Positions 3,001 through 46,789 of a stretch of DNA of 46,789 nt are shown in pieces. A model generated the notes under the pieces. The model was not told the origin of the DNA, did not search any database, and saw only the letters and a list, made by a program, of their open reading frames with translations. Position 1 is the stretch's first letter. Each line of letters opens with the position of its first letter. The translations under genes were made by a program, and so were the position numbers. Source of the DNA: a bacterium (lineage in GTDB: Bacteria > Electryoneota > JAOADG01); contig JAOTSC010000005.1 of assembly GCA_030247525.1 (NCBI GenBank), forward strand, positions 1 to 46,789, read 5' to 3'.

Positions 3001-5171
3001 CCAAAAAACCGGAAGAAGCGTTTAACAATCGTCAGAAGATAATCGACGAAGCGATTGCTATTTATCAATTATCAGTCGATGCCTATGCCAGCTCACTTGA
3101 TCAATACAGTACTGCCGTCGGAGTCCTCGATAACCAACGAGCTGAGTTGGCGGGCAGCATAACGAAATTGCAAGAGTGGATCGATGTTAATGGCACAACT
3201 GCCGGCATCGTCGATTCAACCGTTATGCTCGATGCCCAAAAGAAGGCGCTCGACCGTGTGGAAACAGCGTTGAGTGAAGCGCGGAAGTGGCAGGCGATGG
3301 TGCGGGAGAAGGCTCCGGAAATGGCGTTCCGCAAAGCAACGTTGAAACAGGAATTAGTGTATGGCGCATTAGAGTTGCCGGATGCAGCTGTGCCGGGTAT
3401 CAAAGACCCGCAAGTCGGGCGCAGTATTTATCGCCAGCAGGTTTTGCAGGGATTCGTCGGACAGTTTGCTTCGGAAGCGTTCCAAGCGTACATGGATGCA
3501 ATCAAAGTTGCTCGTGAAGCCGGCTACGAAGAGAAATGGGCAGTACCGGCCCGTGCCGGCATGAAGACGACGATTGACACGTTACTGTATACAGCCGATG
3601 AATTGAATGAGCGCTGGTTTACGATTTACGAAAAGAATTCCAACGCTATTCAGGATTTATTGCCGAAGGGCGCTGGTGCGCGCGACAAGCAAAACCGCGA
3701 AGTGTACAAGATTTCTTCGGAGATGCAGTTAGCGGTGGAATATTACGCTGGTGAACTTGGTGTAACAACGGTGATGAATGCGATTTTGGGACGCTTACTG
3801 GAACAAATCGCAACGGATACCGTCGGACGAGCGTTGCAACAACCGGCAATTGATGCTGTAATCACTTGGTATTCCAAGCAAGCAGGTCTTGCCGAGAAGA
3901 TGAAAAACGAAGCGGCGACGGCAGAAGCAACTGCGAAAGAGAAATTCCGGGAAACGTCACAGTACCAGTTTGAAGATGCCTACACCGGATATGAAAGCGT
4001 TCGTTTAACCTTCTCCGGTCAACAACGCGACCTCTTAGCGACGTCTTACGACTTCACCGAGAAATATGGCTTTAGCTCGTCGGCGATGGGAGTTATTCTC
4101 CAGAAGCTCGCCGAGCTCGATCCAGAAACTTATGGTGCCAAAGTTGGAATCCAGTTAACGGAAAACTGGATTGGCAGTGATGAGACCTGGATTTCCACTG
4201 ACACCTATATTGAGGGGTATCCAGAAGCTGATCTCGACGTATCCAATTGGCGCTATGCTACCGCAAGCCAATTCACCGGAGTCGCTCTCGACAGCTTTAT
4301 GAATGCGCAAGCCAAGCCAATCCACGGATTAAAAGCGGGTGAAACGGCATCGGCAGGTATGAAGCGTTGGTTCCGTAAACCGGTATGGATTACGGAACGC
4401 ATCACTTCGGCTGAGATGCGCATCATCGGTGACGACAAAATATCGGTCTTCGTAAATAAGGAGTTTATTTACGAAACTCAAGAAGACACCGATTGGAAAG
4501 CAACCGTTCTACAGGATGTATCTTCGCAATTAAAGCCGGGGTACAATGTTATCGCGGTCGAATTAAGTGATGTCGATGGTTCAGGCGGTGGGTTCATCTT
4601 CGGTCTTAAGTATAAGACAGTACCCGGCTCGGTTTCTCCGATATTGCCGGAACCGCCGAATGCGGCGACGATGCGCAACATTGGTACCGGTGGCAGCATC
4701 ACCGCACCGGCGCAAACCCCGGAAGTGAAGCCGGAAGAGACGCAACCGGCTCCTGTTGAGCAAGCGCCTGCGACACCGGTGGAACAACCAACGGAAACGC
4801 CGAGCGAGCAGCCAGTTGAGCAACAACCAACGGAAGTGCAACCGGAAACAACAGCGCCAGCACCAACGGAACAACCAGTAGCAGAACCGGTTACGGAACC
4901 AGTGCAGGAACCGGTCGTAGAACCGGCGCAACAGCCGGTGACAGAACCTGCAGCGGAACCTGTAACCGAACCGGTCGTGGAGCCAGTTTCCGAGCCTGTA
5001 ACGGAACCAGTACAGGAACCAGTCGCAGAGCCGTTGCAACAGCCAGTTACTCAACCGGTCGTAGAACCAGTGCAACAGCCAGTAACCGAACCAGTGCCAG
5101 AGCCCGTGCAAGAACCGGTGGTTGAGCCGCAATCGACCCCGCCGGACACGACAAAACCGGCAGGCGAGTAA
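3..5171 (+). CDS. Giant TPR-repeat envelope protein, 5' end outside the window
   Basis: The reading frame is open from the first bases, so the true start lies upstream and the first usable codon here (TTG at 21) is probably internal. About 1,700 residues are visible. The first 900 or so carry many degenerate tetratricopeptide-like units of the kind A-x-x-x-F-x-x-x-x-x-x-Y-P (for example around 430-560, 740-860 and 2220-2380). A helical, partly coiled-coil stretch follows. Near 4210-4620 there is a beta-rich module with the pattern 'dDkisVFVNkefi...W...LkpGyNviAVel', which resembles a jelly-roll carbohydrate-binding fold. The tail is low-complexity Pro/Glu/Val. Position at the head of an ExbB-ExbD-ExbD-AgmX cluster suggests a periplasmic scaffold for that complex, comparable to the TPR proteins beside the Myxococcus adventurous-gliding ExbBD genes. 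The TPR call is firm; the function is inferred. Confidence 0.85.
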   Translation, partial: RIAGAQLNDPNTLAAQRLTDLRDRQTSYERRMKMLQWSSLPAESLVAMKEQFEKEKEELGKENQRLRGQYVSKLEEFLKSYNTDPKFEKVRAAMKGSDELIAQVTLRLAELYALQAIDNYGADMERWNTAGNIGPEPKLNYGKAQNLFAKIVADYPKATWASDALYSLAYIKSEQATPEVYVVDPSREAAKLDYLKLIEEYPESRYREESYFAMGSYWFSYPPKGVKITDQLDSAEYYFKEVLNNPKSTKYEQALYMLGWISFRRPDYGKAVEYFEMAINYPYDHKIDREGSSTSITTDATNYIATIFAEPARIWDGSGVANALKYVAADSIRAQRFGVKMLEILGDQLARNLAQFDSAVVAWQGAVAISPYHERSPFIQQKVVESAFRDLRNMQLWYAEGNKLFNDYKTGSPWWDTSHKAKVRKAVKQMVRDTYQQVASFAVNRAINKESPDYDPKGADEAVRVCKEFINAFPTDSAAYEWNYQLANLLSPGYLNRPEEAFAEYQKVVTAYTFASYRKPASEQMLLVAEELTNEQAKTTPYPQFGTDSTTGLPTATRSELTQGETMMMAAAENYVKLFPDDVTIAPAYLYNAGRINYQRGRIPEANDYFVQIIQKYQTTKYYEPAYKNYAEGYLVMRDFAGAERVATEIEAASVSDTLKQFANERKAAAIFSSATTLSLNAEKPSESGEVVAVDKTAQYEKAGDEYMRVAMIPNFKDADLSLENAAAQYRKANKLEKVIEAYNTLATKFPGSKRAPRALYNAGLIQQTDLKRPAEAAATFDRLVSTYPASEEYDVKQATINASFNYEQAQDYRNAVRINQLFAERYPTDENANQLLFKTAGLYLKMDDVASANRIYDDFSRKFPDSPNAVLANFERGKYAQDRNDLTTARQQYQAAYDRHMGLIRQGKSGNAEYASKALAQIVGWDLETYKAIRYAELPQFKEGVTARKDKKIQRQELFDRIKIIIEMAQAEQFQALHWAGELDENLAETHLNQKREPTKKPEEAFNNRQKIIDEAIAIYQLSVDAYASSLDQYSTAVGVLDNQRAELAGSITKLQEWIDVNGTTAGIVDSTVMLDAQKKALDRVETALSEARKWQAMVREKAPEMAFRKATLKQELVYGALELPDAAVPGIKDPQVGRSIYRQQVLQGFVGQFASEAFQAYMDAIKVAREAGYEEKWAVPARAGMKTTIDTLLYTADELNERWFTIYEKNSNAIQDLLPKGAGARDKQNREVYKISSEMQLAVEYYAGELGVTTVMNAILGRLLEQIATDTVGRALQQPAIDAVITWYSKQAGLAEKMKNEAATAEATAKEKFRETSQYQFEDAYTGYESVRLTFSGQQRDLLATSYDFTEKYGFSSSAMGVILQKLAELDPETYGAKVGIQLTENWIGSDETWISTDTYIEGYPEADLDVSNWRYATASQFTGVALDSFMNAQAKPIHGLKAGETASAGMKRWFRKPVWITERITSAEMRIIGDDKISVFVNKEFIYETQEDTDWKATVLQDVSSQLKPGYNVIAVELSDVDGSGGGFIFGLKYKTVPGSVSPILPEPPNAATMRNIGTGGSITAPAQTPEVKPEETQPAPVEQAPATPVEQPTETPSEQPVEQQPTEVQPETTAPAPTEQPVAEPVTEPVQEPVVEPAQQPVTEPAAEPVTEPVVEPVSEPVTEPVQEPVAEPLQQPVTQPVVEPVQQPVTEPVPEPVQEPVVEPQSTPPDTTKPAGE
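4735..5130 (+). repeat. Coding Pro-Val/Glu/Gln/Thr repeat tail
   Basis: The end of the TPR gene is built from reiterated codons for E-P-V, Q-P-V and T-E-P units, giving roughly 130 residues of low complexity rich in Pro, Glu, Gln and Val. At DNA level GAACCGGT and GAACCAGT words recur without exact periodicity. Such extended acidic Pro-rich tails are typical of periplasm-spanning linkers such as those in TonB. The tail lies directly upstream of an ExbB/ExbD operon, which fits that role, but this is inference. Confidence 0.75.
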
Positions 5172-18585: not shown

Positions 18586-20010
18586 ATGACGTTTCAAGAC
18601 ACTGACAAAGCAACCTCCGACCTCGATAACCTCTGGAAGCGATTTTGTAATGAGCTTACCATTCGGATCGGAGACGATCCAGTGCGGACATGGTTTCATT
18701 CTTTGCGTCCGATTCGACTCGACCCGGTACGTGAGCAATTTGTCATTGCCGTCCCTGGCGCATTTCACTTGGAATGGCTACAATCGCATTATGTCGAACC
18801 GGTGACAGAATGTGCGCAACGGGTATTAGGCAATGGTTTTGCGACCGTGTTCGAAGTAGGCAGTGGCGACTGGCATAAATCCAATTCCCCCGAGCTAACT
18901 GAAGCAAAACGCAACTCTGAGCCAACGATTTCGGCCATTACAGCAAAACCACCGGTGAAACGAGCAACGGTACAATCGCTCAAGATCGATCCCGATTTTT
19001 GTTTTGAAACCTTTGTTGCTGGCGAGGAAAACCGGCTGCCGCGCTCGGCAGCGATGGCGGTAGCGCAATCGCCGGGAGGAAATCGTTTCAATCCACTGCT
19101 GATACACGGCGGTGTCGGATTAGGAAAGACGCATCTGCTTCATGCGATTGCGAATCTCAGCATGCAGACGATGGAAAATTGTCATCCGGTACTGACTAAC
19201 GCCGAGCAATTCACTTCCGATTTTATTCGTGCGGTTCAACACGATAAAAAATTAGACTTCGCCGATCAGTATGGCGACTCTGATATTTTGTTAGTAGACG
19301 ATGTCCAATTCTTCATGGGGCGCGAACAAACCCAGCGACAGTTTTTCCACACCTTCAATACGCTCATCAATGCCGGCAAGCAAATCGTCATGACTTCGGA
19401 TCGCACTCCGAAAGAGTTGGACGGTCTCGAAGAACGGTTGCGCAGCCGTTTCTCGCAAGGCTTGGTGGTGGAAGTGATGCCGCCGGAATACGAAACCCGG
19501 GTCGCGATTTTACGGGTATGGGCAGAACGCGACGGTGTAAAACTGCCGGTTGAAGTCGAAGATTTTTTGGCGGCTCATATCACTTCCAATGTTCGAAATT
19601 TGCGCGGCGCTGTTATCCGATTATTGGCAATCGCATCGCTCGAAATGAGCGAGTTGTCGGTTGCCGTTGCGCGTAGAACCCTTCACGATTTACTCTCGAA
19701 ACCCCAAATCGCAGTTACTGTGGATCGCATCATTGAAATCGTCAGCCGATACTACCGGCTTGCGCCGGAGTTGTTTTCCTCGAAATCGCGGAAGCAACCG
19801 TTGGCGGAAGCCCGGATGATTGTAATGGCATTGAGTTGCGAACTTACTGGACTGTCGCTCGCCGCAATCGGAGCCCGATTAGGCGGACGCGATCACACCA
19901 CAATTCTCCATGGCAGGGAAACAATCCGCGAAAAAGCGGAGCACGACCCCGAGTTTAATCGACTCTTAGAGCAGTTTAAACGCGAAGCCGAACACGGAAT
20001 TACCATATAA
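18586..20010 (+). CDS. dnaA: Chromosomal replication initiator DnaA
   Basis: This 474-residue AAA+ initiator binds DnaA boxes at oriC. Domain I occupies about 8-90 (DNLWKRFCNELTIRIGDDPV...). A variable linker follows, then domain III starts with DFCFETFVAGEENRL. Walker A is GGVGLGKTHLLHAIA and Walker B is DILLVDDVQFFMG. Domain IV carries the DnaA signature GARLGGRDHTTILHG near the C-terminus. ATG 18586 gives a normal N-terminus but lacks a clear Shine-Dalgarno. dnaN does not follow; instead there is a 443-bp gap and a secreted protein gene, so the classical dnaA-dnaN operon is absent here. Confidence 0.96.
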   Translation: MTFQDTDKATSDLDNLWKRFCNELTIRIGDDPVRTWFHSLRPIRLDPVREQFVIAVPGAFHLEWLQSHYVEPVTECAQRVLGNGFATVFEVGSGDWHKSNSPELTEAKRNSEPTISAITAKPPVKRATVQSLKIDPDFCFETFVAGEENRLPRSAAMAVAQSPGGNRFNPLLIHGGVGLGKTHLLHAIANLSMQTMENCHPVLTNAEQFTSDFIRAVQHDKKLDFADQYGDSDILLVDDVQFFMGREQTQRQFFHTFNTLINAGKQIVMTSDRTPKELDGLEERLRSRFSQGLVVEVMPPEYETRVAILRVWAERDGVKLPVEVEDFLAAHITSNVRNLRGAVIRLLAIASLEMSELSVAVARRTLHDLLSKPQIAVTVDRIIEIVSRYYRLAPELFSSKSRKQPLAEARMIVMALSCELTGLSLAAIGARLGGRDHTTILHGRETIREKAEHDPEFNRLLEQFKREAEHGITI

Positions 20011-35943: not shown

Positions 35944-36107
35944 TCATTGCGAGGAACGTAGCGACGAAGCAATCTCATCCGGTAGGGGCGGCACAGAAAA
36001 TGTCCGCCCATTCCATTGGGGGTGGTTACGGGCTTCCAAGCCCGTTACGTAGGGGCGTGCCGCGCACGCCCGACTACAATCCCGTACGTCGGACATTCTT
36101 GTCCGAC
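35944..36107. repeat. Palindromic element array with a TCATTGCGAGG unit
   Basis: The array opens with TCATTGCGAGGAACGTAGCG, then ACGAAGCAATCTCATCC. A GTAGGGGCGG/CCGCCC unit (35982-36009) is identical to 29789-29816. ACGGGCTT/AAGCCCGT with a CC loop lies at 36028-36045, and GGGCGTGC/GCACGCCC with a CGC loop at 36053-36071. GTCGGACA/TGTCCGAC with a TTCT loop lies at 36088-36107. The next gene's frame is open through part of the array, which wrongly lengthens that ORF. Confidence 0.85.
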
Positions 36108-36132
36108 ATTGGAATGGAATAGAGGTATCACG

Positions 36133-38424
36133 ATGAAACAGTTTAGTTGGATACTTCTCCTCTCTCTCGCCCTGACCGGCGAGTCAACTGCCACGCCGCG
36201 GTGGGGCGATGACTTCGATTGGTTGGGCGATACCCTTGCCATCACCGTACCAATGGGAATGATTGCCTTTGGCGATACCATCGTCTGCCATACGCCAAAC
36301 AACATGTTTGCCTTGTTACAAACGGACAACCGCACATTTCTAAAACTCTGGCAAATGAACATCCCGTATGCTGTTGCAATGCCTTATAGCAACTACTACA
36401 CGATTTCTAATCGGTTCTGCCATATCCTGCGGCGTGGAAACCGGTTTTACTACGGTTGGCCAAAGGCAATGATCGAGTGGAATGGGAACGACGCGCCGGT
36501 CTACCGGGGAGCTATCCGAAATGGATTGCAGTTTACTCCAGATACCGCTTTCACCGCAGGTGATTTCATTATTCCATCATCAATACCAATGTCCTTATAT
36601 CGAAGCTATAAGCCGGTACAGGTAAACAATATGATTCTGGTCGCCGACCGCATATTTCGAATTGATTCCCTTACCGACCGCATAGAATATGCCGGGAATG
36701 CAAGAACGAATTGGTACGATTCAAGCGTTACCGAATGGGCGGTACGGTGGCCTTATGCTTATGGAATTACTACAACTCACCAAATTGCTGTGGTAAAACT
36801 CGATACTACACCACCCCAAACAGTACACCGGTTCGAAACAACATTCCAACCCGTTTTCTGCAGAATCATTAACGATTCTTTGGTGATGGGTGGAGGGTGG
36901 TCAGTATGGTCGTTGGAAAATCCCCGAATTCCACAATTTGTAGGTAACAATACTCGGTTTCCTGGAATAGACTACTTGTGGGAGGAGCCAGTCGACAGCG
37001 TATGGTTCGGATGGCGTGGTCCATACTTCTTTCTGATTTCATTGGCACAAGGATTGCTCGCACCAATGATTGCTGACACCTTTCGTCGACCAGTAATGAA
37101 TGCATCTTCCACACCAAGCTGCAACGTCGCAAAGACAAATTATGGCTGGCTTGTGCAATCGAATCATGTACTCTACCCGGAGCAGGATTTTTTTCAATTG
37201 CGGCAGTATCGCGACGCCCAGCATCGCCAAAGACTTGACTCATTGTGGTACTACCGACAACCGGTAGGGTTCGACTCCAACTACTTGGCGCATGAGCATT
37301 ACCAACATTATTATCCCTTAGTACAATCAGCAAAGGAAGGAAAGGCGTTTGTAACGCGCGGAATACGTCAGGCGGTCTTAGTCGCCGACACCGTAAACGC
37401 CCGCCATCAAATGCGATGGCTGCCACAAGGTATCTATCAAATCGCAATCGATGGCGAGCAAGTGTTAGGTGGCGCTGGCACTGACCGTCGGTTTCATCTA
37501 TTAACGTGGAGTAATAGCAGTTGGTTAGACCAAATATTCACAGTGCCGGATTCCGTTACGACGAATGTGGAGTTGTTTCGTTCCAATCTGGTGGTTTTCC
37601 AAGGAAACACCCAGTATCCTTTCCCGGTATATCGATTCCAGAATGGAGAAATGATATCTGACGGTGTTCTTCCTTATCAGCCCATAACATTGCGAGAATC
37701 CAGCGCGATTCTGGACATCGGAGACAGTATTCGATGGTACCTTAAACAGGGAGGAGCCTGGCTGCCGCAAAATTGGAGTGTGCCGGGGTCGGGATACGCA
37801 TTTGCAGAAGGGGATACCATTTCGACAAGTGGTGGGCAAATCTATGCGCTTCAGCGGAATACCGCTCCGACATTAATTGTAGACACGTATCCATTTTATA
37901 ACTCCAATGGATTTTTACTTCAAAGTAAATCCTATTTTTTACGACAAACACCGCTGGATAATTATCAACACATCTATACTCGTTACGACCACACATCGGA
38001 GGGTTGGGTGGAGCGAGGTGTAATAATGTCTGGAGCGCCTTTCCTCTACTATGGATCGATGTTATTGACAATGACCCCCGGTGCGATTTCTACTTACCGG
38101 ATGCCGCCGAATAACGCTACCCCCGAGCTGATCGGAACGCTACCGTTCGATTTTGCTTTATCTAATCCCTATCCCAATCCATTTAATTCGACGATCACCT
38201 TCCAGGTCGATCTCCCCCGCTCGGCAATGACCGAGTACGCCATCTACGATGCCCTCGGACGCGAAGTATACACCCAACCCTCCGAACGTCTTTCCCCCGG
38301 GTCCTACACCCTCCACTGGAACGGCCATGACAACAACGATCTTCCTGCCAGCAGTGGCGTCTACTTTATTCAAGTCCGAGCCGGAACCTTCACTGCCGTC
38401 AAGAAAATTGTCATGCTGAAATAA
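36133..38424 (+). CDS. Secreted protein of unknown function with sorting domain
   Basis: The product has 763 residues from ATG 36133, where AGAGGTATCACG precedes it and a signal peptide begins (KQFSWILLLSLALTGESTA). The longer frame from 36016 is repeat-derived and rejected. The body of about 670 residues is rich in Trp, Tyr and Asp. It shows repeated short beta-strand patterns such as DTIVCHTPNN, NNMILVADRIFRID and DSLVMGGGWSVWSLENP, which suggest a degenerate beta-propeller (LVIVD-type repeats), though I cannot count the blades. The C-terminus is a Por-type sorting domain with LSNPYPNPFNSTITFQVDLP, YDALGREVYTQ and the terminal IVMLK. It is probably surface-located; nothing indicates an enzyme. 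Confidence 0.85.
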   Translation: MKQFSWILLLSLALTGESTATPRWGDDFDWLGDTLAITVPMGMIAFGDTIVCHTPNNMFALLQTDNRTFLKLWQMNIPYAVAMPYSNYYTISNRFCHILRRGNRFYYGWPKAMIEWNGNDAPVYRGAIRNGLQFTPDTAFTAGDFIIPSSIPMSLYRSYKPVQVNNMILVADRIFRIDSLTDRIEYAGNARTNWYDSSVTEWAVRWPYAYGITTTHQIAVVKLDTTPPQTVHRFETTFQPVFCRIINDSLVMGGGWSVWSLENPRIPQFVGNNTRFPGIDYLWEEPVDSVWFGWRGPYFFLISLAQGLLAPMIADTFRRPVMNASSTPSCNVAKTNYGWLVQSNHVLYPEQDFFQLRQYRDAQHRQRLDSLWYYRQPVGFDSNYLAHEHYQHYYPLVQSAKEGKAFVTRGIRQAVLVADTVNARHQMRWLPQGIYQIAIDGEQVLGGAGTDRRFHLLTWSNSSWLDQIFTVPDSVTTNVELFRSNLVVFQGNTQYPFPVYRFQNGEMISDGVLPYQPITLRESSAILDIGDSIRWYLKQGGAWLPQNWSVPGSGYAFAEGDTISTSGGQIYALQRNTAPTLIVDTYPFYNSNGFLLQSKSYFLRQTPLDNYQHIYTRYDHTSEGWVERGVIMSGAPFLYYGSMLLTMTPGAISTYRMPPNNATPELIGTLPFDFALSNPYPNPFNSTITFQVDLPRSAMTEYAIYDALGREVYTQPSERLSPGSYTLHWNGHDNNDLPASSGVYFIQVRAGTFTAVKKIVMLK

Positions 38425-38431
38425 CGGTTTT

Positions 38432-38837
38432 GGGTGGTGGATACGGGCTTCCAAGCCCGTTCAAAATTGGGCGAAACGCTTCGACCTGGGTGGTTAGAGG
38501 TCTCCAGACCTGTATAATTGAAAAAGTTTAACGGGCTTGGAAGCCCGTATCCACCACCCCTACGGGGTACCGACAGGTCTCCCGACCTGTACAAATTGGA
38601 ACAGAAAAAGCGAACACAGGATTGGAATCCTGTAACCACCACTACACCGTAGGACAGACACTCCTGTCTGTCCATGAAGTAACGCAGACAAGATTGTCCG
38701 CGCCACAGAAAAAGGGCGGCTGCCAGCCGCCCCTACGGCGGGCTGGGAAGCCCGTAACTACCCATCATAATAATTGATGCAAATGAGATTACCTTCGGTG
38801 AGCCCTTCGGGGTTGCTTCGCAACGCTCGCAATGACA
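38432..38837. repeat. Large palindromic element array with a 30-bp perfect inverted repeat
   Basis: GGGTGGTGGATACGGGCTTC... (38432-38461) is perfectly reverse-complemented at 38530-38559. Each arm contains its own ACGGGCTT/AAGCCCGT hairpin. AGGTCT/AGACCT lies in the 68-bp centre. The segment continues with ACAGGTCT...GACCTGT, GGACAGACA/TCTGTCC (38651-38673), GGGCGGCT/AGCCGCCC-CTAC (38714-38736) and GGGCTGGGAAGCCC. A reversed TCATTGCGAG unit (GTTGCTTCGCAACGCTCGCA) lies at 38812-38837. This fills most of the 492-bp gap before dctQ; the remainder shows nothing. Confidence 0.87.
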
Positions 38838-41920: not shown

Positions 41921-42268
41921 TTATTTAGAGTACTTCACCAATATTTTCTGTAAAACAGGTGTTATAGGAGGTAAATCTTCCTGTATGGTTGCCCAAACAA
42001 TGGGAAGATCAATTTGGTTGTAATTGTGCGCGATCCGATTTCGCATACCGCGCATTCTAACCCAATTCACTTGAGGGAACTCCTCTTCGATTTCTTTTGG
42101 GATGTATCGAGCCGCCTCACCGATAACGACGAAGTTAAAACCGATTTTGTCTTGAGTACCAAGATCATTTGTGAACTCAGAAAAACTCATTTTTTCAACG
42201 TAACGGTTGATGCGTTGAATACGTTCCAAGATATCTTCGATGCGAACAATCCAATTCTTCTCAGACAT
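41921..42268 (-). CDS. HepT-like HEPN toxin (DUF86)
   Basis: This 115-residue HEPN-domain RNase toxin starts at ATG 42268; an in-frame GTG at 42280 is also possible. The motif R-x4-H-x-Y is present as RNRIAHNY, where Arg and His form the RNase site and Tyr is the residue that MntA modifies in characterised HepT-MntA pairs. The N-terminal helix EKNWIVRIEDILERIQRINRYVEKM and the segment FNFVVIGEAARYIPKEIEEEFPQVNW are typical of DUF86. The start overlaps the stop of the nucleotidyltransferase gene by 8 bp, the standard coupling. Confidence 0.9.
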   Translation of the reverse strand: MSEKNWIVRIEDILERIQRINRYVEKMSFSEFTNDLGTQDKIGFNFVVIGEAARYIPKEIEEEFPQVNWVRMRGMRNRIAHNYNQIDLPIVWATIQEDLPPITPVLQKILVKYSK

Positions 42269-42554
42269 AGATTGCTTCACTTAGTATGCGTGCGCGAAAT
42301 TGTCGCTTCACGCCGGTTGTCGTTACCAAATCGATTTTACTTCCCGTTAATTCGGATAATTGATCTTCTAAATCACCTAATCGAAAAAAGCCGATTGGTT
42401 CGGTAAATTCCACCAGAATATCCACATCGCTGTTTTCGGTCTCATCCCCCCTTGCCACTGAACCAAAAAGGGCAAGCGATTTTATCGGAAACTGTCGTTT
42501 CAGTTCCGGTAATCGTTCCGAAAGAATGCGAAGAACTTCAACTCGATTCGGCAT
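42261..42554 (-). CDS. MntA-like nucleotidyltransferase antitoxin
   Basis: This 97-residue minimal nucleotidyltransferase starts at ATG 42554; an in-frame ATG at 42584 would add 10 residues. The catalytic motif GS-x10-D-x-D is intact (FGSVARGDETENSDVDILVEF minus its first residue), followed by a third acidic strand (GSKIDLVTT). In the studied HepT-MntA systems this enzyme AMPylates the toxin Tyr and so neutralises it. The order antitoxin-then-toxin and the 8-bp overlap support an active pair. No other defence gene is adjacent. Confidence 0.9.
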   Translation of the reverse strand: MPNRVEVLRILSERLPELKRQFPIKSLALFGSVARGDETENSDVDILVEFTEPIGFFRLGDLEDQLSELTGSKIDLVTTTGVKRQFRARILSEAIYV

Positions 42555-42712
42555 TGTAAACCCGATGTAACACTCCAAGAACATGATTCAAACGACTTCT
42601 TGATATTCCTCGAAAGATTCGCATTGTACTACTGAGTTTACTAAAGTTTTATGCGCATGTAAATATCGCGCAGTAGTTAACATCCAAATTTATCCTTCGC
42701 TGTGATCGCAAG

Positions 42713-44023
42713 TTACTTCCGTTCTAACTCGGCAAACCATTCCAAATCGGGCGTGCGGGGAAACATGTCGTAGAGCCGAATCCGAGTGAGTTGGTAGCGT
42801 TCGGAAGCGAGCAGGATTTTCAAATCGCGGGCGAGCGCAGCGCCATGACAGGCGATATAGGCGATTTTACGGGGTTTGCGGCGGAGAATTTCTTTCATCA
42901 CAACCGCTCCCGCGCCATCATAAGCTGGATCGAGGAGAATGCCATCGGGACGCAACGCCGGTTCGATGGTCGGAAAGTCCTTCACGACATCGCAACCAAA
43001 ATATTGTATCGGTAATTTTACTTTTTTCTGCGCGCGCGTACCATCCTGAATCGCGGTTACACTCCGTTCCAATACCAGCACCTCGGTACCGGACTTCGCG
43101 ATGCGACGAGCAAACGGCCCATACCCGCCATATAAATCGAACATCGTCGTTGTTATGTCGCGCGACCACACCTCGACCGCATTCACCATCGCTTTAGCGC
43201 CCGCGTCATTCACTTGCCGGAACGTCAAAGGATGAATCGCGATGCCATCATCACCGGATAAGAGAAGTTCACCCGCGATAGTATGGGTAGTCGACGCGGC
43301 GTTCTTTTCCGAGTCGCGGCTGAGCGGCGCGCTGGAGATGCCGACCAGACCGGGGTACTCGTGAAAGAATCCGCTGAGCTGGGTTTTCACTGCGACAGGA
43401 AGGTTTTCCCGGGTCGTGAAATGAAGATGCATACCATCACCCACCCGCAGCGATATTCGTGCCAATAGTGCTGGTAGTTGCTTGATATCGTTGCGCATGG
43501 CAACTAACAATTCGCGATACAGTTGGCGCAACGGTTCCATCGCCAACATACAATCATTCACCGGTACGACCAGTGCGGCGTTATTCGTAGGATGATAACC
43601 GATTTTAGGATTTTGACCGCTGGAAACCGATAGCTCGATTTTGTTGCGGTACTCCCACGCGGGACCCTCGGTTATCGGTGGTTCGATTTCCCATTCGATA
43701 CCGCCAATTCGCTTCAGCGTCTCTTGGGCATGGGCATGTTTGTAAGACAATTCGGCACTGCGTTCGATACAACCGTAACGCGACCCGGGGCATTTATCCG
43801 CATGGGGACACGGATGGGGCGTCCGCTCCGGCGCATCGGAAAGCCGCCGACGTAACGTGCCCCGCCACACGTTGCCGGTAATCACCGCATCGATCTCGCC
43901 GCTCTCGCCCGGCAACAATCCCGGCACGAACCCGACCCGCCCCTCATTGCGAAAGACCCCTTCGCCGTGCGCGCTTAAATCGGTCGCAATTACCGTCAAT
44001 CGAGTATTATTTACCATCGTCAT
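42713..44023 (-). CDS. TrmA/RlmD-type RNA (uracil-5-)-methyltransferase
   Basis: This 436-residue SAM-dependent methyltransferase makes 5-methyluridine in rRNA or tRNA. The N-terminal TRAM domain is present (TDLSAHGEGVFRNEGRVGFV). The iron-sulphur cysteines are in CPHADKCPGSRYGC plus a later Cys in PVNDCML, which favours the RlmC/RlmD group. The SAM domain has HPLTFRQVN, MFDLYGGYGPFARRIA and ILLDPAYDGAG in place of DPPRxG. The catalytic Cys is in IAYIACHGAALARDL and the base Glu in DMFPRTPDLEWF. The order matches the family, though some motifs are divergent. Start is ATG 44023, with an alternative at 44017. It overlaps the end of the upstream DUF2231 gene. Confidence 0.9.
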   Translation of the reverse strand: MTMVNNTRLTVIATDLSAHGEGVFRNEGRVGFVPGLLPGESGEIDAVITGNVWRGTLRRRLSDAPERTPHPCPHADKCPGSRYGCIERSAELSYKHAHAQETLKRIGGIEWEIEPPITEGPAWEYRNKIELSVSSGQNPKIGYHPTNNAALVVPVNDCMLAMEPLRQLYRELLVAMRNDIKQLPALLARISLRVGDGMHLHFTTRENLPVAVKTQLSGFFHEYPGLVGISSAPLSRDSEKNAASTTHTIAGELLLSGDDGIAIHPLTFRQVNDAGAKAMVNAVEVWSRDITTTMFDLYGGYGPFARRIAKSGTEVLVLERSVTAIQDGTRAQKKVKLPIQYFGCDVVKDFPTIEPALRPDGILLDPAYDGAGAVVMKEILRRKPRKIAYIACHGAALARDLKILLASERYQLTRIRLYDMFPRTPDLEWFAELERK

Positions 44024-44516
44024 CCACCACGGTTGGGGCGTTCGTCGCCGCTTGATTTACCGGAAGCGTATTCGCACCATAGCGATAGACCAATTCACCA
44101 CCGTAATGTCCGGCGATAGAAACCAGCAGCGCGCCTGCCACTGAAATGATGATGACGCTATTCCGGAACCGCTCGAGTTTCGGGACAAATAGAATCGTAA
44201 GCCGCAGTACCAGCATGCCGATTGCGACCCACATCGTCGCATATCCTAACGATTCATGCCGTTCGAGTAAAGCGGAAACGGCAGGATTCTGGAGGACATT
44301 TGCTTCGACCGAGCTTCCGGTAACGACTGCGCCGATTGCCCCAAGCACTCCGACAATCGATAGTAGGAGAGCGCTTTCCCGCATTCCTTCGGGACGACGC
44401 AACACGATTGCGAGAATATCGCAAACGGCGACTAACACGAGCGCAGCCACTGGCAAGTGAACTGCCACCGGATGAAATCCGGCAAATTGTAGGTGTGAGA
44501 ACATAATAGGTAACAT
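44007..44516 (-). CDS. DUF2231 family membrane protein
   Basis: This encodes about 169 residues from ATG 44516; ATG 44504 is equally possible, and neither has a clear ribosome site. The longer frame up to 44642 reads through a repeat array and is rejected. Four membrane helices are visible. FHPVAVHLPVAALVLVAVCDILAIV opens the DUF2231 domain, and LLLSIVGVLGAIGAVVTG follows. GYATMWVAIGMLVLRLTILF and VIIISVAGALLVSIAGHYGGELVY are next, with the conserved GHYGGELVYRYG. Family members occur with haem or cytochrome-related genes, but none is present here. It overlaps the rlmD-like gene by 17 bp, so the two are co-transcribed. Confidence 0.85.
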   Translation of the reverse strand: MLPIMFSHLQFAGFHPVAVHLPVAALVLVAVCDILAIVLRRPEGMRESALLLSIVGVLGAIGAVVTGSSVEANVLQNPAVSALLERHESLGYATMWVAIGMLVLRLTILFVPKLERFRNSVIIISVAGALLVSIAGHYGGELVYRYGANTLPVNQAATNAPTVVDDDGK

Positions 44517-44574
44517 AACACAAAACCGGGGCGCGAGCGAGCAAATTTTAGTATTTTTTTGGAATGAGTGCGAT

Positions 44575-44830
44575 TCATGGTGGATACGGGCTTCCAGCCT
44601 GTACATCATTTCGGTACGACAGACACTCTTGTCTGTCGGCATTTAGGGCGTATGCCACTCGCCCCTACAGTTTTATAAAAAATAGGGGCGTATCGCTACG
44701 CCCCTATCGTTCCTTGTTCTCTGTAAAGCAAATGGGATTGCTTCGTCGCTGCGCTCCTCGCAAAGACAACCGCAGACAGGAGTGTCCGCGCTACAAGACG
44801 GGCGGCTGCCAGCCGCCCCTACGAAGTTAC
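44575..44830. repeat. Palindromic array, left copy of a 150-bp direct repeat
   Basis: TTCATGGTGGATACGGGCTT opens the array (shared with 46604). GACAGACA/TGTCTGTC with a CTCT loop lies at 44618-44637, followed by a degenerate GGGCG...CGCCCCTAC unit. From 44681 to 44830 comes a 150-bp composite. It contains GGGGCGTA/TACGCCCC, a TCATTGCGAG-type unit in reverse (GATTGCTTCGTCGCTGCGCT at 44736), GCAGACAGGAGTGTCCGC and GGGCGGCT/AGCCGCCCCTAC. It ends at the stop codon of the neighbouring sorting-domain gene. Confidence 0.88.
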
Positions 44831-46485
44831 TTCACTAATTGGATCAGCTGGCTATTGCTAAAGCCCGGTGCATCCATCTTCACGATATAGGAACCACTCG
44901 AAAGATGATCGGCGCGGAACGAAACCCGGTGCCAACCCGCCTTCAGATTCCCATTATGGAGATCGACCACTTTTTGTCCCAACATATTATAGATTGCAAG
45001 TGTAACGTCTGAACTTCTCGGTACTGCAACCTTGAAGGAGGTCGTGGCATTGAAGGGATTCGGATAGGCTTGTTCTAATCGAAACTCACCCGGAAGGGGT
45101 AACTCGGTTGCGTCGATGTTGTCAGCGACAATTTGGAAAGTCGCATCGGAACTATCTTGGATGGCGCGAATCGCTACGGTCTGATAAGAGATCCGAATTC
45201 GTGCTTCATTGGTGTTAATGGAAGGCACTTGCCACAACAGTGAGTCTAAAACAACCGCAAGCAGTTCCCATGGTCCAAAAGTTGTGAACTTCACTTCTAC
45301 CATTACGGCATCGGTTTGCAAAATACCTTCACTCCGCCATCGAATGGGATAGGATGAGTTTCCCTCCAATAACTCGCCGCCATTCGGTTGCAATAATTCT
45401 AATGTTGGTACAAGGGAAAAACTCTGACGCGACTCATCAAAGATGTTAGAGTCGGTCGTCGATTCGATCCGCAATCGGGCAGTTGCGCCCATTGTGTAAG
45501 TACCAGTGACGATACATGCTTCATTCGTATCGTTCGGCGTACTGGCAATTAGTGTATCCCAACTACCCGTCGGATAATTGCGATTTATCAGGAAACGAAC
45601 GTTACCGGTCGCAATAGGCGTTGTTTGCCATTGCAGTAATGTTGTATCGCCAATTCGCAGAGCGTTATTTGTAAAGGGTTCCTGGAGACCAAACTGCGTT
45701 ACATTGATTCGATCGCTAATTACTTGGATTGCGGTATCAAGTACCGAACGAATCCGTATTCGTGAAGTCAATCCGGTAACCGGAGCAGTAACCAACCAAT
45801 TCTCACTGGAATCGTTCGCTGTACTATCAAACAAGGTCTCCCAATTTCCCGATGGATAGTTGCGATTCAACGAAATCTGGACACTACCTGGAATAGCAGC
45901 ACACGCCCACTGCAAAGGAAAATTTGTACCGACCACCAACCGGGAGAGAAAAGTTGGATTAACTAACTGTAATCCCGTTTTAATCCGCATCGTATCGGAG
46001 GAGACATTCCATATTTCGGTATCGCCATGCGGAACGACGAACAACTGGCCTTGGTTCAGTATCTCGTTGTAATAGGTACCAGTAGGAATCGGCCCATCGA
46101 ATGATTCAAATGCCCGCATGTAAAAATGGTCGCCTTCATAGGGAAGAGTAGGAAGATACCATGGATATGAACTAAAAATAATTAATACAGAAAAAGTTCC
46201 TTGCCAATCAGTTCCATGACCAATGGGAAAAGACAACCAAAGTCGATCATCTCCCCCCGGCATACCATTTGTTAAGGGGGGATCTATCCCATCTTGTAAT
46301 GAATCGACAATAACCTGAACTTGACTCCCGATTGCAAGTGGTTGTCCAAGATGGTTGCGGATGTAGGTGGGATCGAAGGTCGTCGCATCAAATGTATTAA
46401 TCTGCATGCCACTCGGTTGTGCGAGTAGTAAAGAGGAAAGCAACAGCAAGAAGAAAATGACAGAAAAAATCGAGCGGTACTTCAT
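44827..46485 (-). CDS. Secreted Ig-like repeat protein with sorting domain
   Basis: The product has 552 residues, with GGGAAG before ATG 46485 and a signal peptide (MKYRSIFSVIFFLLLLSSLLLAQ minus its ends). After an N-terminal region with FSVLIIFSSYPWY come three repeats of about 95 residues. They contain FPLQW...VQISLNRNYPSGNWETL, LLQWQTT...NVRFLINRNYPTGSWDTL and GGELLEGNSSYPIRW. This is the pattern of Kre9/KNH-like (Ser-Thr-rich GPI-anchored type) Ig-like domains often seen in bacterial surface proteins. A Por-type sorting domain ends it (LEQAYPNPFNATTSFKVAVP, IYNMLGQKV, ending IQLVK). The gene is enclosed by 150-bp direct repeats, so it may be a cassette that can be lost or duplicated. Confidence 0.9.
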   Translation of the reverse strand: MKYRSIFSVIFFLLLLSSLLLAQPSGMQINTFDATTFDPTYIRNHLGQPLAIGSQVQVIVDSLQDGIDPPLTNGMPGGDDRLWLSFPIGHGTDWQGTFSVLIIFSSYPWYLPTLPYEGDHFYMRAFESFDGPIPTGTYYNEILNQGQLFVVPHGDTEIWNVSSDTMRIKTGLQLVNPTFLSRLVVGTNFPLQWACAAIPGSVQISLNRNYPSGNWETLFDSTANDSSENWLVTAPVTGLTSRIRIRSVLDTAIQVISDRINVTQFGLQEPFTNNALRIGDTTLLQWQTTPIATGNVRFLINRNYPTGSWDTLIASTPNDTNEACIVTGTYTMGATARLRIESTTDSNIFDESRQSFSLVPTLELLQPNGGELLEGNSSYPIRWRSEGILQTDAVMVEVKFTTFGPWELLAVVLDSLLWQVPSINTNEARIRISYQTVAIRAIQDSSDATFQIVADNIDATELPLPGEFRLEQAYPNPFNATTSFKVAVPRSSDVTLAIYNMLGQKVVDLHNGNLKAGWHRVSFRADHLSSGSYIVKMDAPGFSNSQLIQLVK

Positions 46486-46603
46486 GGCACTTCCCTTTCC
46501 GATTCAGTAGCACATCAATAATACATAACAATTAAGTTGATTGCGAGCGTTTTTCTTGTCCAGTGAAAAATATTTCGTAAGTGGTGGGTTATTAAGATTC
46601 TAT

Positions 46604-46789
46604 TCATGGTGGATACGGGCTTCCAAGCCCGTAAAAAGAAATAGGGGCGTATCGCAACGCCTCTATCGTTCCTTGTTCTCTGTAAAGCAAATGGGATTGC
46701 TTCGTCGCTGCGCTCCTCGCAAAGACAACCGCAGACAGGAGTGTCCGCGCTACAAGACGGGCGGCTGCCAGCCGCCCCTACGAAGTTAC
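46604..46789. repeat. Palindromic array, right copy of the 150-bp direct repeat
   Basis: TTCATGGTGGATACGGGCTT and the hairpin ACGGGCTT/AAGCCCGT open the array. From 46640 to the window edge it matches 44681-44830 at 148 of 150 positions. It lacks the 78 bp of extra units found between those two blocks in the left copy. The last bases (CGAAGTTAC) include the TTA that serves as the stop codon at the left copy, so another minus-strand gene may end here and continue outside the window. Apart from this array, 46486-46603 shows nothing but the leader of the gene at 44827-46485. Confidence 0.88.

Follow-up and report, generated by a model that had tools for sequence, protein, structure and literature searches.

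Repeats around a T9SS surface-protein gene are probably the 3' REP clusters of tandem paralogs, cut by an assembly break

The window, which is the whole stretch of DNA that was analyzed, covers all 46,789 bp of contig C5 from a metagenome-assembled genome (3.59 Mb in 305 contigs). Near its right end lies gene C (44827..46485, minus strand), an open reading frame for a protein of 552 amino acids that ends in LVK-TAA. The protein has the C-terminal sorting domain that is characteristic of T9SS cargo (TIGR04183, E = 2.7e-9, 36.9 bits versus a cut-off of 23; also PF18962, E = 2.2e-7), and from these matches we predict that it is a T9SS-secreted surface protein. A comparison with named genomes, from which the host's own genome may have been left out, gave distant sorting-domain relatives only. 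Next in line is a gene for a DUF2231 membrane protein (44007..44642, minus strand; an open reading frame with a profile match). Its called start overlaps the array of hairpins described below, and the true start is probably further downstream.

Other parts of the window have features of their own. The stretch 36016-38740 holds another T9SS sorting-domain gene, which encodes 802 amino acids; a cluster of REP hairpins begins 18 bases past its stop codon and includes an inverted pair (38432-38464 and 38527-38559). Adjoining minus-strand genes for a nucleotidyltransferase (PF01909) and a HepT-like protein (PF01934) at 41921-42584 are a typical MNT/HEPN toxin-antitoxin pair. Repeats with a period of twelve bases lie near the 3' end of a gene for a 1722-amino-acid TPR protein (4861-5128).

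A repeat search of the window found one repeat pair here, 44677-44830 and 46636-46789, with 154 nt in each copy, 98% matching, and a spacing of 1959. A sequence-only reading of this DNA had described repeats of equal length (150 bp) with two differences, 1959 bp apart, with one sorting-domain gene between them; the repeats are real, its coordinates were within four bases of ours, and the enclosed gene is gene C (44827-46485, on the minus strand, with the T9SS profile matches given above). As that reading also noted, the left copy contains the stop codon of gene C (44827-44829). Within the 150-bp block, the mismatches fall at 44697/46656 and 44703/46662; after the second one the copies agree perfectly for 127 bases, up to the contig end. 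In a search of the genome, the two matches to the block had E = 5.7e-76 and 9.3e-72, which rules out chance. The complete block is present at these 2 sites only, and 47 partial pieces lie elsewhere.

In the direction of gene C, the block consists of four elements, located by scans for hairpins and tags, by the repeat search, and by folding. The first is a GTAG-tagged hairpin (GTAGGGGCGGCTGGCAGCCGCCC; 44800..44822, minus strand), with a second copy at 46759-46781 and a third at 38714-38736. Then come another GTAG-tagged hairpin (GTAGCGCGGACACTCCTGTCTGCG; 44771..44794, minus strand, with a second copy at 46730-46753) and a TGTC-tagged hairpin of the TTGCGAG type (44732..44769, minus strand, with a second copy at 46691-46728), which resembles CGTC-type REPs by the tag consensus in PMC3733652. 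Last is a GGGGCG hairpin with an 11-bp stem (ATAGGGGCGTATCGCTACGCCCCTAT; 44682..44707), whose second copy at 46641-46666 has two differences. The left array has further hairpin modules within 44573..44668 (44573-44605, 44618-44637, and 44646-44668), and the last two of these are missing from the right array.

Folded as DNA, the block forms five hairpins (z = -4.3), which are small palindromes as in REPs. Hairpins of the TTGCGAG type are preceded by TGTC in 15 of 15 cases, and two other hairpin types are preceded by GTAG in 23 of 38 and 10 of 21 cases. Six hairpin types are high-copy, dispersed, and mainly extragenic: they have 173 copies in 1.66 Mb (a reversed control had none), with 114 of the 173 outside genes as called by a crude gene caller that over-calls. 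One type occurs 48 times in the host genome and in 0 of 60 other genomes. The GTAGGGGCG type is found in 23 of 61 genomes (the host, G000, and 22 others), with stems that are genome-specific and mutually complementary; its outer frame is fixed while the inner stem varies between genomes with compensatory changes. Rfam gave two sub-threshold microRNA matches only on the block, which we took as chance, and a literature search with the repeat core as a string returned unrelated papers only. The paper by Di Nocera et al. 2013 (PMC3733652) divides REPs into two super-families, with GTAG tags or with CGTC tags (often TGTC, with a CCA-like tail), and reports REPs close to the 3' ends of genes. We identify the blocks as clusters of REP elements with GTAG and CGTC tags, a known class. 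The earlier idea of a defined 150-bp element that bounds a cassette has to be given up: the block is made up of several REP hairpins that are dispersed in the genome, and at its right edge the assembly most likely just broke off (see below).

The same paper uses the term "REPtron" for a RAYT gene with GTAG REPs on both sides. In the host, a RAYT-family match at C7:36086-36520 scores 61.6 bits, which is under the cut-off of 80, and has GTAG hairpins on both sides of it (35956-35979, 36002-36025, and 36564-36587). The best-scoring RAYT match (C3:32106-32510) has an internal stop, and three other matches are open. The 3.6-Mb genome also has at least 150 matches to T9SS sorting domains. We considered that REPs might target T9SS genes, and by bases the raw enrichment was 15-fold. 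But once intergenic space was controlled for, REP modules were only moderately enriched downstream of T9SS genes (odds ratio 2.9, p = 0.004, gaps of 100–800 bp), which weakens that idea. The full array, folded as RNA, gives a far better structure than shuffled sequences do (z = -6.4), and on the strand of gene C a run of T comes after one hairpin. Because of this strong predicted fold and the T run after a hairpin, the array may end or protect the gene C transcript.

Position 46789 is the end of the contig. An exact match of 126 bases near another contig's end was found for five other contig ends, with 127 bases here, and the remaining matches among the 212 ends examined were shorter or scattered. 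Because such exact overlaps occur at other contig ends, we read the right edge as most likely an assembly break rather than a biological boundary. The overlap lengths suggest an assembly by de Bruijn graph with k near 127. In such a graph, any repeat that exceeds k interrupts the contig after roughly k bases, however long the repeat really is, so both the length of 150 bp and the seeming end at a stop codon would be set partly by the assembler. Since the 46,789-bp contig stops at the right edge, 150 bp is a minimum length rather than the size of a natural unit. The right copy does have the same bases at the edge of the window (127 identical bases), as had been claimed, but that edge is most likely where the assembly stopped. 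Might the pair itself come from a false loop in the assembly, so that the genome has just one copy? The right copy overlaps its own contig exactly for 127 bases and runs to the contig end, as a false loop would. However, upstream of those 127 bases the arrays are unlike in sequence and composition, and 138 bases of DNA beside the right copy have an independent match on contig C59, so we consider a false loop very improbable.

A search of the genome with the gene C protein identified just one close full-length paralog, gene B (C59 17715-19373), which is 79% identical in amino acids and also ends in LVK. C59 ends at 19382, nine bases past the stop codon of gene B. Its terminal letters are GTGAAGTAACTTCGTAGA, and the context of the stop codon matches that of gene C. 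The 3' end of gene B reads ...CAATTGGTGAAGTAACTTCGTAGA, that of gene C reads ...CAATTAGTGAAGTAACTTCGTAGG, and the right-hand array begins, in the direction of the gene, with GTAACTTCGTAGG; all three fit except for the final base of C59. In the 1.66 Mb examined, the 14-mer AAGTAACTTCGTAG is found only at the end of C59 and at the stop of gene C. The link between C59 and C5 has 12–13 overlapping bases, with the last base of C59 an A versus a G in the array. If the two contigs were joined, the exact shared stretch would be 132 bases, or just above k. We infer that C59 probably adjoins position 46789, that genes B and C are probably neighbors, and that the right copy (46636..46789), which the contig end cuts, is probably the 3' array of gene B. 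The sequence-only reading had suggested looking beyond 46789 for another gene that ends in LVK, and gene B is probably that gene.

The mismatched base leaves room for another explanation, in which C59 leads into a slightly different array, a third copy of its own, and the right copy is part of a further, unassembled paralog or of the end of an unrelated gene. Contigs below about 3 kb were masked (read as N), and the bin has contigs down to 1.5 kb in size, so a further paralog could be hidden there. Still, only a single close full-length paralog was found, the stop context of gene B fits up to the penultimate base, and it is common for one base to be mismatched at the tip of a contig. We think that this explanation is unlikely.

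Upstream of gene B, and adjacent to it on C59, is gene A, whose product has 1136 amino acids, with Ig-like repeats and a T9SS sorting domain. A Fur-family gene lies upstream of A. In a relative from the same family (G001), there is a single homolog of A (1135 amino acids) without tandem partners beside it. The contig ends suggest the order Fur-A-array-B-array-C-array-DUF2231, with C the gene in the window. More strictly, a path that uses every piece would be A-array-X-array-Y-array-DUF2231, where X and Y are B and C in either order, because both shared stretches, including a 138-bp upstream flank, exceed k.

Genes B and C align over 553 codons without gaps, with dS = 0.55 and dN = 0.127, and their DNA identity falls to 45–64% in one middle stretch. 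Their ends are far more similar. The 138-bp upstream flank of gene C (46515..46652, minus strand) is identical to the upstream flank of gene B (C59 17547-17684). At the 3' end, where the sorting domain is encoded (44837..44937, minus strand), there are 1–2 differences in 101 bases, and as few differences in the last 101 coding bases were seen in 1 of 5000 shuffles. Third-base differences number 2 of 33 at the 3' end versus 108 of 382 elsewhere (0.06 versus 0.28, Fisher p = 0.004). The arrays are 98–100% identical (two differences in 150). Silent differences between gene A and genes B and C are also fewer over the last 35 codons of A, and within the contigs examined, only A, B, and C turned out to carry similar sorting-domain DNA. 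This pattern is not explained by uniform divergence after one duplication, and it points to copying of the flanks and sorting-domain ends between the paralogs (gene conversion) after they duplicated. Selection on the flanks could contribute, but it is hardly expected to hold 138 noncoding bases free of any change.

We also considered whether the block might be a composite mobile unit, with two independent insertions beside these genes. Its component hairpins are widely dispersed and belong to a transposase-associated class. However, the complete block is at these two places only, and independent insertion does not explain the identical upstream flank or an identity that probably runs into coding sequence, so we give this idea very little weight.

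Overall, we consider it likely that the blocks are the 3' REP clusters of neighboring T9SS surface-protein paralogs in tandem, with homogenized ends, cut by an assembly break. We propose that a unit of gene plus flank was duplicated to give a tandem T9SS family, putatively in the order A-B-C, and that the coding middles of B and C then diverged. Homologous recombination (gene conversion) would have kept or made the upstream flank, the sorting-domain end, and the array nearly identical. It was probably RAYT-type transposition that first placed the GTAG and CGTC hairpins here, after which they moved together with the genes. As the shared stretch would be longer than the assembler's k-mer, the contig would have broken inside it, so that the repeat falsely seems to end at 46789. 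Tandem duplication of gene plus array, or copying of the array at a homologous 3' end, had been offered as alternatives. Both are supported (the first by the LVK paralog on C59, the second by an array and gene 3' end that look recently copied), but they are not alternatives.

It is plausible that strains vary by recombination between arrays that deletes gene C, and if strains do differ in gene number, then the arrays are the natural place for gain and loss. A broader speculation, which we think is doubtful, is that the 3' REP clusters of T9SS genes act as recombination handles, so that flank, sorting domain, and array are homogenized while the exposed middle diversifies; surface proteins would then expand, contract, and exchange domains. 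More concretely, these are paralogous genes for secreted proteins whose ends look homogenized while their middles diverge, and a striking repeat at a contig end can be accounted for by ordinary biology together with a break in the assembly.

Every component is of a known kind: a probable tandem of genes for secreted proteins, whose ends apparently recombine, REP clusters, and a likely assembly break. Like the GTAG/CGTC REPs of PMC3733652, the elements here are palindromes of 20–40 bp with short loops and a GTAG or CGTC/TGTC tag at one end; there are several families per genome; they are clustered, mostly intergenic, and near gene 3' ends; and a RAYT-family gene is flanked by GTAG REPs. Unlike those REPs, ours are not sorted into published families, and the host is from a T9SS-rich metagenomic lineage that apparently lies outside that paper. 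For the T9SS surface proteins of Porphyromonas gingivalis, gene conversion or allelic exchange has been discussed (PMC5266723). Recombination among homologous surface-protein genes is similarly suggested here, but from paralogs in one assembly instead of from a comparison of strains.
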